Shown here piece by piece: positions 11,241 to 21,567 of a stretch of DNA of 21,626 bases. This DNA is from a virus. Made by a program: the position numbers and the translations under genes. The stretch is taken from the IMG/VR virus record IMGVR_UViG_3300007735_000474, positions 1 through 21,626 of that record, one strand, 5' to 3'. Numbering within the stretch: position 1 is the stretch's first letter; every line of letters begins with the position of its first letter. The notes under the pieces were generated by a model, which was not told the origin of the DNA, did not search any database, and saw nothing but the letters and a program-made list of their open reading frames with translations.

Positions 11241-11275
11241 AAAACAAAAAGGGGAGTTTTTGGCTCCCCTTTTTT
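11241..11275 (-). terminator. Rho-independent terminator after the major capsid gene
   Basis: The arms GGGGAG (11251-11256) and CTCCCC (11264-11269) are extended by A5/T5 pairs, giving an 11-bp stem with a 7-base loop. On the minus strand it is followed by a U-rich run and starts within 10 bases of the capsid stop codon. The A/T flanks make it potentially bidirectional. It should raise the capsid-proximal transcript over downstream genes. Confidence 0.85.
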
Positions 11276-17367: not shown

Positions 17368-18894
17368 TTAGTAATACGCAGCTTTTCTTCTGCCGTATTT
17401 ATATAAAAAATCATCTTCTGGTTCGTCACTGGGCAGACGAATAAATCCACCTTGCCTAAATCGTAATAAGGCTAATGTTGTTGAGTCTACCAAATCGTCA
17501 TTCGCTCCGCTAGGAAAATCGTTACACTCCTCAATCACTTCCTTCGCCCACCGATGCTCTGGCGCCCAAACAATGCCTGCCGAGAACAAGTCTGATACAG
17601 CATTAACGCGAGAGATTTTATCTTGACCTTTGCCAGGTGTGAACTCCCCGATTGGTACGCCCATGCGCCGTAGTTCTTGGTAGAGAGCCGCCCCATTGGA
17701 CTTCTTTTCAACCATAAACGAATCTGGCTCCCATTCTTTGTACTCTTCAAGTACAAGCTTTTTGAGGTCTGGGAACTCCATCCGTTTTTTAATGGAATTG
17801 AGAAGGATAATGTTGTAGTTGTTCGTTTCTTCGTTGAAGAACACCCCCCACGTTGTGAGCGCATTGTAATCCGCACGATTATTCGCCTCCTGAGCTGCGT
17901 CCAAAGACATAATGACAAATTCGCACATGGGTGGGTCATCTTTTTCCCAAATCTGCCACCATTCCCGCTTAATTAAAGCCCCTTCTTCTGAGGTCGGTTG
18001 TTGTAAATACTGGGCATTCCAGTACCGCACATCCAAAGAAGCCTTCTTTGCTAATAGCTCTTCAAGAGACCAGAATTCGGGCCAAAGCGGTTTACCTGAA
18101 GGCATAATCGCAGGAAAATCTACTATTTCCCAGTCTTCTGCATCCTCATTTTTGACCATATGATTGACAATTTGTCCTGTCAAATCAAGCTTTGACCAAC
18201 GGGTCATCACGACAATAATTGCCCCGCCAGGCATAAGACGCTGAATAGGACCAGATTGAAACCACTCCCAAGCTGGTAGAAAAACGTCAGCTCTGCCCTG
18301 CTTAGCGTCTTGCTCTGAGTGAGGGTCATCAATGATAAATAAATCTGCGCCACGACCAGCCAAAGCACCGCCAACACCAATAGCAAAATACTCTCCATTA
18401 AAGTTTGTCCCCCATCTAGACGCCGATTTACTGTCGGCTTGTAGCTCTACCGCTGGAAATATTTCTTTATAAGAGTCTGAACCCACGAGATTCCTAACTC
18501 TACGACCGAAATTGACAGCAAGATCAGCTGTGTGTGATGCCATGATGACCTTTTTCTGAGGAAACTTACCCAAAAACCAGGCAGGAGCGAGATAGGATAT
18601 AAGTTCCGACTTACCATGACGCGGAGCAATGTTAACAACCACTCGCTTCTTCTTACCCGCAGCAATATCTTCAAAAATTTTAGCCAATTTTGCATGGTGT
18701 TCACCTACTTTATAGCCTGGATATACATGGTCAATAAACTCAAGGAAGTTTTCCTTACCGTCTTTCTTAACGGTTTCAGATTTATAGGTCTTAATGAGTT
18801 TTAGAGTGTGCCTTTTCTTGTCTGGCGGCATGCCAGGGATGGCTTTTTCAAGCTCTTCAATGTCTTTTTTAGTTAATTTACGCTGGGCAGTCAT
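17368..18894 (-). CDS. terL: Terminase large subunit
   Basis: A 508-residue DNA-packaging motor. ATPase part: adenine/Q-type region near VGEHHAKLAKIFEDIA (63-78), Walker A APRHGKS (90-96), Walker B LFIIDD (185-190) and the coupling motif MTRW (230-233). Nuclease part (RNase H fold): SLDAA with D332, FMVEKKSNG with E396, and ANDDLVDS with D466, D467 and D470, giving the expected acidic cluster. The length is normal for TerL and all key residues are present, so it should be active. It packages DNA through the portal encoded next and cuts concatemers. The start overlaps the putative TerS stop by 4 bases (ATGA). Confidence 0.96.
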   Translation of the reverse strand: MTAQRKLTKKDIEELEKAIPGMPPDKKRHTLKLIKTYKSETVKKDGKENFLEFIDHVYPGYKVGEHHAKLAKIFEDIAAGKKKRVVVNIAPRHGKSELISYLAPAWFLGKFPQKKVIMASHTADLAVNFGRRVRNLVGSDSYKEIFPAVELQADSKSASRWGTNFNGEYFAIGVGGALAGRGADLFIIDDPHSEQDAKQGRADVFLPAWEWFQSGPIQRLMPGGAIIVVMTRWSKLDLTGQIVNHMVKNEDAEDWEIVDFPAIMPSGKPLWPEFWSLEELLAKKASLDVRYWNAQYLQQPTSEEGALIKREWWQIWEKDDPPMCEFVIMSLDAAQEANNRADYNALTTWGVFFNEETNNYNIILLNSIKKRMEFPDLKKLVLEEYKEWEPDSFMVEKKSNGAALYQELRRMGVPIGEFTPGKGQDKISRVNAVSDLFSAGIVWAPEHRWAKEVIEECNDFPSGANDDLVDSTTLALLRFRQGGFIRLPSDEPEDDFLYKYGRRKAAYY

Positions 18895-19534: not shown

Positions 19535-19551
19535 AGTGACGGGGGGTGTTT
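19535..19551 (+). repeat. 17-base G-rich direct repeat, copy 1
   Basis: The sequence AGTGACGGGGGGTGTTT occurs here and again, identically, at 19888-19904. A partial copy (ACGGGGTGTTT) sits at 19873-19883, just before copy 2. Confidence 0.85.
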
Positions 19552-19560
19552 CTATAAATT

Positions 19561-19572
19561 GATTTGTAAAGT
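19561..19572 (-). repeat. 12-base inverted repeat, left copy
   Basis: Read on the minus strand this is ACTTTACAAATC, identical to 20001-20012 on the plus strand, where it contains the -35 box of the rightward promoter. No matching -10 box was seen on the minus strand at the usual spacing. Confidence 0.7.
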
Positions 19573-19590
19573 CTTTTAAGGTTAATTAAC

Positions 19591-19904: not shown

Positions 19905-20002
19905 GGAAAAACGTGGAGTTATTTGTAAGGATTATGGGGTATGGGGGCGCGGATGGAACCACTTTGTAATTTGGGGGGTCGGGGTGTGGTGGGGTCAAAT
20001 AC

Positions 20003-20031
20003 TTTACAAATCCTATCAGCTAAGGCATAAT
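20003..20031 (+). promoter_or_regulatory. Sigma70-type promoter P1
   Basis: TTTACA (20003-20008) and CATAAT (20026-20031) are spaced by exactly 17 bases. The transcript should start about 7 bases on, at or near the A of ATGGATTGA (20038). It drives the 161-residue protein gene and shares its layout with P2. Confidence 0.85.
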
Positions 20032-20037
20032 TTAACC

Positions 20038-20046
20038 ATGGATTGA
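20038..20046 (+). other. Mini-ORF ATG-GAT-TGA at predicted transcript start
   Basis: A start codon, one sense codon and a stop lie 7 bases after the -10 box. The second cassette has ATG-CCT-TGA at exactly the same offset. It may be translated leaderless, or may only reflect a conserved initially transcribed sequence. Confidence 0.4.
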
Positions 20047-20078
20047 GATTGGCTCGATTCATTAACAGGGAGATTCAA

Positions 20079-20564
20079 ATGAGTAAGAAATCAACAGCAG
20101 TACAGTTGTTAGACGAAGCCAAGGCTGACATCAACCGCAGTCGTAACAGTCTGAGCAAATACGCAAAGCAGTTACAAGCTGTGCGTAAGCAGTTAACCCA
20201 TATCATCAAGATGGTTTGCCCAGAGCCAATTGGTGAGGCTTTTACTAACGCTGAGTATTCTCTAGTGTGCAGAGTAGATGCTACCTACTGTCAGCCTTCT
20301 GTTACTTTTTATACAGCGGGTCTAGATAGTTTTAAGGATGAACGCTTAGCTAGTATGCTCTGGTATTTCAGCACACTAGACGGTAGCAGAGATGTTAGCT
20401 CTACCGACTATGCTCTATCTCTGAACCGTGTTTATCGGTTTCAGTTTGAAGGATTCATGGTTCGGATTGATGCGACTGTGAAGTCCGACAGTCCTACTTG
20501 CCGTAAGGTTGTAGTAGGTAGTAAGACAGAAGTCGTAAACGAATACAAAATCGTTTGTGATTAA
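20079..20564 (+). CDS. Unknown phage protein with N-terminal coiled coil (cassette 1)
   Basis: A 161-residue protein, MSKKSTAVQLLDEAKADIN onward. I place the start at ATG 20079, with AGGGAG (20067-20072) 6 bases upstream, rather than at a TTG further 5'. Residues about 8-45 are a charged helix or coiled coil (EAKADINRSRNSLSKYAKQL). The rest looks beta-rich (YSLVCRVDATY, SVTFYTAG, VYRFQFEGFMVRIDATV, VVNEYKIVCD) and has four Cys. I do not recognise a family, and no enzyme, membrane or DNA-binding motif is evident. It is transcribed rightward from its own promoter P1 and closed by its own terminator, unlike the leftward virion genes, so an early, host-takeover or regulatory role is the likeliest reading. 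Confidence 0.82.
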   Translation: MSKKSTAVQLLDEAKADINRSRNSLSKYAKQLQAVRKQLTHIIKMVCPEPIGEAFTNAEYSLVCRVDATYCQPSVTFYTAGLDSFKDERLASMLWYFSTLDGSRDVSSTDYALSLNRVYRFQFEGFMVRIDATVKSDSPTCRKVVVGSKTEVVNEYKIVCD

Positions 20565-20586
20565 GCTTTCCCTGTAGTACCTTCAG

Positions 20587-20611
20587 CCCTCTCGCTTCGG
20601 CGGGAGGGTTT
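20587..20611 (+). terminator. UUCG hairpin terminator of cassette 1
   Basis: The 9-base arms CCCTCTCGC and GCGGGAGGG pair with one G-U wobble around a TTCG tetraloop, followed by only three T's. The stem is strong and the U-tract short, so termination may be partial. Confidence 0.75.
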
Positions 20612-20614
20612 GAT

Positions 20615-20639
20615 ACCAGTTATTTGTCCTCGAGCGTGC
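20615..20639 (+). repeat. Post-terminator conserved element, copy 1
   Basis: A 25-base element starting ACCAGTTATTTGTCCTCG recurs at 21543-21567 with 22 of 25 bases identical. In both places it begins a few to about 16 bases after a UUCG terminator, and it is followed or overlapped by an alternating purine-pyrimidine tract. Confidence 0.75.
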
Positions 20640-20672
20640 TTCGTGTGCGTGCGTGCGTTTCCTTAAATAAGG

Positions 20673-20690
20673 GTTCAATGCCCATTGAAC
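20673..20690 (+). promoter_or_regulatory. Perfect palindrome (candidate operator) touching the P2 -35 box
   Basis: GTTCAATG and CATTGAAC flank a CC centre, giving an 18-base perfect dyad ending directly before TTGACA. This position would let a bound dimer block or contact RNA polymerase. It is absent from P1. The regulator is unknown. Confidence 0.6.
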
Positions 20691-20719
20691 TTGACAAATA
20701 GCGTGATTAAAGAGATAAT
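20691..20719 (+). promoter_or_regulatory. Sigma70-type promoter P2
   Basis: TTGACA (20691-20696, full consensus) and GATAAT (20714-20719) are spaced by exactly 17 bases, followed by TTAGCCATG. It is one of the best promoters in the window and drives the 228-residue protein gene. Confidence 0.9.
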
Positions 20720-20725
20720 TTAGCC

Positions 20726-20734
20726 ATGCCTTGA
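20726..20734 (+). other. Mini-ORF ATG-CCT-TGA at predicted transcript start
   Basis: It occupies the same distance from the -10 box as ATG-GAT-TGA in cassette 1. The shared bases are TTTA-CCATG, then TTGAG. The main start codon follows at 20791 with AGGGAGA 8 bases upstream. Confidence 0.4.
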
Positions 20735-20790
20735 GTGATGCCGATTACTTTCAATCTGCCACTTATTGCATAAATAGGGAGATTTGTCAT

Positions 20791-21477
20791 ATGACAAAAA
20801 CCAAGCTTGTAAATGCCCTTGAGCAAGGTGCTGTAATTAACTCTAATAATCCTACTAGTTTGCCTGACTTAGGTTATAGGCATGGTGGGGCGTTGCATAC
20901 TGTTAAGCAATTAGCGGTATGGGCGTTAGATGGTGGGGTTAAGGGTTTTCCTGACAATGTTAGCGACGAAGATACTTTGAGCATACGCCAAGGTTATAAG
21001 CGTAAACACTCAGAATTAAACCCAGCAACTCAGTATTGCATTGTCGAGGGAAAATATCTCAAGGTTAGCGATATGCAATTACAAGGGATTGAACTACCTA
21101 AAAATCCTGAGTTAGTTAATATTGGCGTGGATTATGCGTTTAGCTTTACTCAGCAACAAGCGGGTAAGCTTAAAGAAACTCATAACCCCGTATTGCATAA
21201 GATTGTTGCGGATATTAGAACCCGTTGCAATAAGTACGAAACTACTACTTTTGCAAAATTGCAAGCCGAGGGTAATAAAATCCTGAAAGAGCGTAAGGGT
21301 GAAACTACTCAACGCAAGGGCAATCTGGCTTTCATGGAATGGCTCTATAACGATAAGGGCGTTTTCGATACCATGAAAACCCGTTGCAAAAACGCCAAGG
21401 CAAAAGGTGATGAATTCGCTGATATCGCTAAGTTAGATAAGGCAATATCCGCTTTCAACGCTGTATTTAAGAAGTAA
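20791..21477 (+). CDS. Unknown phage protein (cassette 2)
   Basis: A 228-residue protein starting MTKTKLVNALEQGAVINSN. I chose ATG 20791 because AGGGAGA lies 8 bases before it; a TTG 60 bases upstream would overlap the mini-ORF. The protein is mixed helical: residues about 35-50 (TVKQLAVWALDGGVKGFP), a middle segment YCIVEGKYLKVSDMQLQGIELP, and a Lys-rich C-terminal half (TRCNKYETTTFAKLQAEGNKILKERKG, then MKTRCKNAKAKGDEFADIAKLDKAISAFNAVFKK) that could be helical and basic. No family, catalytic site or membrane segment is recognised. It has its own promoter, a candidate operator and a terminator, pointing to regulated early expression. It may act on nucleic acid; this is only inferred from charge. 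Confidence 0.85.
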   Translation: MTKTKLVNALEQGAVINSNNPTSLPDLGYRHGGALHTVKQLAVWALDGGVKGFPDNVSDEDTLSIRQGYKRKHSELNPATQYCIVEGKYLKVSDMQLQGIELPKNPELVNIGVDYAFSFTQQQAGKLKETHNPVLHKIVADIRTRCNKYETTTFAKLQAEGNKILKERKGETTQRKGNLAFMEWLYNDKGVFDTMKTRCKNAKAKGDEFADIAKLDKAISAFNAVFKK

Positions 21478-21493
21478 TCTAGATTGTTTTTGA

Positions 21494-21526
21494 GGGGGGA
21501 GGGCTTCGGCTCTCTCCCCTTTTTTT
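21494..21526 (+). terminator. Strong UUCG hairpin terminator of cassette 2
   Basis: The 11-base arms GGGGGGAGGGC and GCTCTCTCCCC pair with two G-U wobbles around a TTCG tetraloop, followed by seven T's. It starts 16 bases after the stop codon. This is a textbook intrinsic terminator. Confidence 0.92.
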
Positions 21527-21542
21527 GTGCCCTGAAAAAGAG

Positions 21543-21567
21543 ACCAGTTATCTGTCCTCGCGCGCGC
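21543..21567 (+). repeat. Post-terminator conserved element, copy 2
   Basis: Matches 20615-20639 at 22 of 25 positions (starts ACCAGTTATCTGTCCTCG). It probably precedes a third cassette that lies beyond the window edge; nothing else is recognised in the last 59 bases. Confidence 0.75.

Follow-up and report, generated by a model that had tools for sequence, protein, structure and literature searches.

A conserved non-coding frame around two rightward gene cassettes in an uncultured phage clade

Two unrelated genes at the right end of the window, the 21.6-kb virus record analysed here over its whole length, are enclosed by the same series of non-coding parts, and this frame recurs in dozens of relatives around genes of the same two families, F2 and F0. 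Each cassette combines a promoter, a stem-loop in the 5′ leader, a terminator and, just past the terminator, an asymmetric element that we call EL. On balance we favour the interpretation that these cassettes would give rise to insulated, stabilised and co-regulated early transcripts beside an origin, under a control system shared by the clade. The right end of the window would most likely represent the first part of a rightward control region on the early and replication side of the genome, in an uncultured phage clade (about 65 kb). We infer the early timing of the cassettes, and likewise the host. The region yields a readable regulatory grammar made of a terminator-coupled element, a putative operator at the −35 box, a 5′ hairpin and origin-side repeats, and this grammar covers a widespread clade of uncultured aquatic phages whose putative early genes were previously unannotated.

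The two cassettes and their surroundings

The late genes of the window, which include those for TerL (17371-18894), portal and capsid, are oriented leftward. The two rightward genes come after a 550-bp G-rich gap to the right of these late genes. The parts of their cassettes are listed in Table 1.

Table 1. Features of the two rightward cassettes (window coordinates)
Feature	Position	Strand	Description
Promoter 1	20003..20031	+	TTTACA-17-CATAAT, 10/12; same promoter type in relatives
Leader hairpin, mRNA 1	20036..20069	+	stem GGATTGAG 20040-20047 / CTCGATTC 20053-20060, fold −10.3 kcal/mol
Ribosome site, cassette 1	20067..20072	+	AGGGAG
Gene 1	20079..20564	+	family F2, 161 aa, function not assigned
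Terminator hairpin 1	20587..20608	+	cUUCGg loop, short U-tract (UUUG), −19.1 kcal/mol
EL copy 1	20609..20639	+	TTTGATACCAGTTATTTGTCCTCGAGCGTGC
AT-centred box	20661..20672	+	CCTTAAATAAGG, precedes dyad
Operator-like dyad	20673..20690	+	GTTCAATG-CC-CATTGAAC, ends at −35 box
Promoter 2	20691..20719	+	TTGACA-17-GATAAT, 11/12
Leader hairpin, mRNA 2	20726..20771	+	−14.0 kcal/mol, z −4.3
Ribosome site, cassette 2	20776..20781	+	AGGGAG
Gene 2	20791..21477	+	family F0 (SLKD family), 228 aa, basic, pI 9.3, function not assigned
Terminator 2	21492..21521	+	cUUCGg loop, seven U
EL copy 2	21538..21567	+	terminal promoterless copy beside origin-like region, by homology to L012 and L035

A preliminary description of this DNA had presented the cassettes as matching sets of ordered parts. 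The individual parts were located as it claimed: both cassettes carry a sigma70 promoter with a 17-bp spacer, the string ATAATTTA-CCATG accompanied by TTGAG, the AGGGAG ribosome site and the cUUCGg terminator. A generic promoter scan of the whole window did not rise above shuffled sequences (23 found against 30 expected), and the promoters were therefore accepted on their recurrence at the same place in relatives. The element of about 25 bp said to follow each terminator was likewise found, as a 28-bp repeat at 20612 and 21540 with 86% identity; ACCAGTTATNTGTCCTCGNGCGNGC occurs twice in the window at no more than 3 mismatches, where 0.00 occurrences are expected by chance. The word matching holds for the shared ordered parts but not for the cassettes as a whole. 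No element precedes the promoter of cassette 1, the dyad abutting the −35 box belongs to cassette 2 only, and the U-tracts are unequal. This dyad and the leader hairpin are parts of the cassette that the preliminary description had missed.

Several other features were noted in and around the late genes of the window. Between 19520 and 20000 the gap contains many G-runs on the + strand, with AGTGACGGGGGGTGTTT repeated at 19535 and 19888. Leftward RNA made from this stretch would be C-rich and thereby a possible target for Rho. L005 likewise has a G-rich stretch at the gap position. The −35 region of promoter 1 (TTTACAAATC, 19997-20012) has an inverted copy (94%) at 19561-19576, across the gap and on the opposite strand. 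One strong terminator-like hairpin lies on the minus strand at 11246-11274, right after the capsid gene and within the late operon.

In relatives, the leftward TerS and TerL genes are followed by the gap and promoter 1, then by a unit with between one and six small genes that vary, and by a terminator with EL. Further rightward come an optional F2 cassette with its terminator and EL, then one or more F0 cassettes ending in the same way. About 600 bp of non-coding DNA past the last EL lead to the replication operon, so that the cassettes sit where the late genes and this operon diverge. The operon gives weak Pfam matches to DUF3150 and AAA and a clear match to DUF2201, and by reading of the sequences it appears to encode PolA-like, SNF2-like and primase-like proteins. 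The last 84 bases of the window are identical to L012 at 78 of 84 positions. Beyond the point corresponding to the window end, relatives of the L012 type carry a dyad, a region of repeated 7-mers with an AT-rich stretch, a sigma70-type promoter and the replication operon. By this homology the outcome that the preliminary description had named as refuting its reading, genes further right that lack these parts, would apply: the window would be continued by repeat-rich non-coding DNA and then a replication operon, which in relatives contains no EL. Past the last EL, 7-mers are repeated 5-11 times, compared to 2.3-2.5 times in shuffled sequences, and this repeat-rich region may be the origin. The GC-skew minimum falls at the divergence point in all five long records (5/5), a signal that is confounded by gene orientation.

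The origin-like region, repeat-rich and AT-rich, lies about 140-620 bp past the last EL in L015, L018, L089 and others. Its repeated word differs by phage (TGGAACA, TAGAACA, AAATTCC, CAGAACA). Several contigs stop near it, perhaps owing to the repeats.

An oriented element past the terminators

The consensus of EL is TTTGAT-ACCAGTTAT-NTGTCCTCG-CGCGCG; the element is about 29 bp long, asymmetric and always oriented with transcription. Scanning viral contigs with a pattern yielded 43 DNA stretches. As the EL sets were collected partly by patterns, the columns fixed in this way (CCAGT) overstate conservation. The EL letters in L010, L019 and L029 were attributed to chance, their context being different. 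A sample not selected on EL was obtained by fetching 80 loci by TerL, 41 of which extend 2.5 kb or more rightward of this gene. With a weight matrix, EL was found after early terminators in 30 of these 41 loci and on the opposite strand in none of them, and no copy was detected in 881,674 bp of late-gene sequence with both strands counted. Twenty-nine loci had both EL and F0, three F0 only, one EL only and eight neither (Fisher p 1.4e-5), counts that are not fully independent because elements from these loci contributed to the matrix and some of the loci form near-identical pairs. The locus with EL only, L083, stops just past the element. When three variants read by eye (L096, L097 and L099), which are altered and apparently one base shorter, are added to the matrix result, EL is present in 32/32 F0-bearing loci. 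In the five long records the element is nearly confined to the early region, with two to three copies each.

The flanks might be alike simply by descent, as functionless remains of recent tandem duplication. Tandem F0 paralogs and several independent duplications are consistent with such a history, but the unrelated F2 and F0 share the frame, EL is conserved across genomes whose TerL differ by about 20%, and the hairpins are retained despite sequence change. We therefore regard this explanation as extremely improbable. Nor does EL behave as a structured RNA: the transcript strand gave no folding signal (mean z −0.04), which led us to reject that reading, and an Rfam search returned no match. 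The EL pattern was not found in GTDB genomes, and its letters were not found in the searched literature. Searches of cultured phages with the region (blastn) and with gene 2 (tblastn) gave no match.

The distance from the terminator stem to EL falls mostly into two classes, about 6 nt or 19-25 nt. Most members of the former are first junctions, where the U-tracts are also weaker. By contrast, the distance from EL to the following −35 box varies from 54 to 116 nt. The narrow classes on one side and the variable distance on the other indicate that EL belongs with the terminator. The opposite assignment, in which EL would activate the next promoter from an upstream site, draws on the presence of EL ahead of every later-unit promoter and on its 3′ half, which differs between phages and is similar among the copies within one phage. 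However, in addition to the spacing, the terminal EL follows a terminator without any clear promoter beyond it, and in the window no EL precedes promoter 1; an activator site is thus unlikely.

We propose the following mechanism. Host sigma70 RNA polymerase would transcribe a few short units, each from a near-consensus promoter, with a stem-loop right at the 5′ terminus of the mRNA and an intrinsic terminator at its 3′ end. Placed at a preferred spacing just past the terminator, EL would be bound by a protein that halts read-through into the next unit, a role that may be likened to that of a stoperator or an insulator. With the usual polymerase footprint, a protein bound to EL in the 19-25 nt class would sit about at the front edge of the polymerase at the release point. 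A simple roadblock is less easily reconciled with the 6-nt class, to which many first junctions belong, than with the 19-25 nt class.

Leader hairpins and operator-like dyads

From the estimated start sites, CCATG would correspond to the start of the transcript and TTGAG to the left arm of a stem-loop. A hairpin at the leader position of mRNA 1 is also found in relatives. Among 50 nonredundant leaders the mean folding z score was −2.86, with 46 values below −1, and pairing begins 0-8 nt from the start as estimated from the −10 box. The hairpins are kept while their sequences change, and in the close lineage of the window unlike hairpins substitute for each other at the same place in the leader. 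The stem-loop would most likely protect the mRNA from decay.

The dyad is an inverted repeat of 18-20 bp at F0 promoters, preceded by an AT-centred box and ending at the −35 box. Dyads with at least 6/7 pairs occur at 20/55 F0 promoters (4.8% in shuffled sequences) and at none of the five F2 promoters; perfect dyads are restricted to a minority of F0 promoters. In relatives, the box and dyad are found again past the terminal EL, next to the origin-like region, and in the leader of the replication operon ahead of its ribosome site; the window contains the F0 copy only. The half-sites vary by phage (TTCAAC, TTCCAC, TCCCAC, TTTCAC, ATCGGG and others) and tend to be common within a genome, being shared in 45 of 52 context pairs compared to 31% between genomes. 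The difference persists among 14 lineage representatives (17/24 compared to 20%), and none of 5000 permutations reached so high a value. Gene conversion, as opposed to a common regulator, could account for part of the sharing within a genome. The dyad is most likely the operator of a putative phage-coded dimeric regulator that would tie F0 expression to replication. The concerted change of operators within a phage points to this putative regulator and offers a route to finding it.

EL and the dyads could instead be replication or partition sites bound by an origin-side initiator, their intergenic place being incidental. The region does end, next to the replication operon, in a segment rich in repeats and in AT, with the GC-skew minimum nearby. 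However, EL keeps a single orientation and follows terminators, the dyads abut −35 boxes and ribosome sites, and the origin-like repeats differ in sequence from EL, all of which makes this proposal quite unlikely.

Slot contents and comparison with known systems

F0 and F2 are two core, presumably early, protein families, now named and placed, for which neither PHROG nor significant Pfam matches were found. As the preliminary description had stated, the two cassette proteins are unrelated, with no sign of a common origin (hhalign probability 0.1%). All 89 F0 proteins are basic (pI 8.3-9.5), a property that permits DNA binding and does not establish it. The fold model of F0 (pLDDT 84) retrieved nothing better than E 0.17 from PDB and BFVD. 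A resemblance to retroviral capsid domains (VIA Z at most 5.3 over 72-82 residues) was dropped, as it lies below the stated noise level. The F2 model (pLDDT 63) was too weak to use. The F0 proteins themselves may bind EL or the dyad, each cassette then encoding the protein responsible for insulating and tuning the early array as a whole; this is a speculative proposal, to which we assign a low probability. If true, it would amount to a self-reinforcing system of terminator-coupled roadblocks with phage-specific recognition.

F0 is present in 32/41 TerL-anchored loci, and every EL-bearing one that reaches far enough has it. The EL-flanked slots nearly always hold F0, in one or two copies, or F2, in the order F2-F0-F0. 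The window has F2 in its first unit and F0 in its second, while in the close relative L011 three other small genes take the leading place and F2 is preceded by an EL. The freely variable genes sit before the first EL, in a polycistronic unit without EL upstream. Extra EL-flanked units exist in L011, L022 and L096, the last two with groups of small genes. The F0 tree contains well-supported branches that require no fewer than seven switches of the A/B position label, and several lineages have A and B as sister copies. Both point to cassettes that were duplicated or converted repeatedly and independently. Seven TerL relatives (L093, L094, L101, L106, L119, L132 and L136) have neither F0 nor EL in the stretch covered and carry other early genes there.

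These data lend partial support to the suggestion that the frame marks a modular slot for accessory genes. The frame itself is real and, as examined in relatives, retained around non-homologous genes (F2, F0 and the small-gene groups of L022 and L096). Free exchange of cargo between constant flanks is not supported by the relatives. A docking slot whose accessory genes are swapped by recombination could account for the extra EL-flanked units with other small genes, the changing genes of the polycistronic first slot and the several independent F0 duplications. The near-constant F2 or F0 content in fixed order, the F0 gene in every sufficiently long EL-bearing locus and the position of the variable genes ahead of the first EL argue against it, and we give this model little credence. 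F2 and F0 read as conserved early genes, not accessory cargo. The comparison with morons is likewise not supported, the genes being core to the clade. Morons of lambdoid phages are accessory genes, inserted in operons, with their own promoter and terminator. Predicted promoters and terminators of their own are found here too, but F0 is far from absent in close relatives, and the cassettes, instead of interrupting a contiguous operon, start the early region at the divergence of late and replication genes.

The leader hairpins recall the 5′-terminal stem-loops of the ompA type, which stabilise bacterial mRNAs. As in that type, the hairpins lie within a few nt of the 5′ end, taking the starts estimated from the −10 box. 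They differ in being found on nearly every cassette and in being replaced by unlike hairpins, and a stabilising effect is putative.

The SAS and ESAS of cluster K mycobacteriophages are short and asymmetric repeats that share one orientation within the non-structural half of the genome (PMC3203893). SAS is a 13-bp sequence, GGGATAGGAGCCC, at the ribosome site a few bases before start codons, and in ESAS it is combined with inverted repeats that have a different consensus in different subclusters (PMC3203893). EL is likewise asymmetric and in one orientation but differs in sequence, and is located past terminators, with about 140-190 bp separating it from the next start. Inverted repeats with a group-specific consensus are also found here; the dyad, however, is 18-20 bp in all, instead of having 17-bp arms, and touches the −35 box, unlike the SAS-associated arrangement.

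The stoperators of cluster A mycobacteriophages (L5, TipsytheTRex) are 13-bp sites, more than twenty of them spread over the genome, with a known repressor (PMC9283540). Like EL, they are asymmetric, oriented with transcription and located in short intergenic spaces. EL is longer, about 29 bp, and occurs in one to four copies in one region rather than genome-wide, and its counterpart of the repressor that halts elongation is putative. While it fails a defining feature of each, the cassette system appears to work in parts like stoperators and ESAS.
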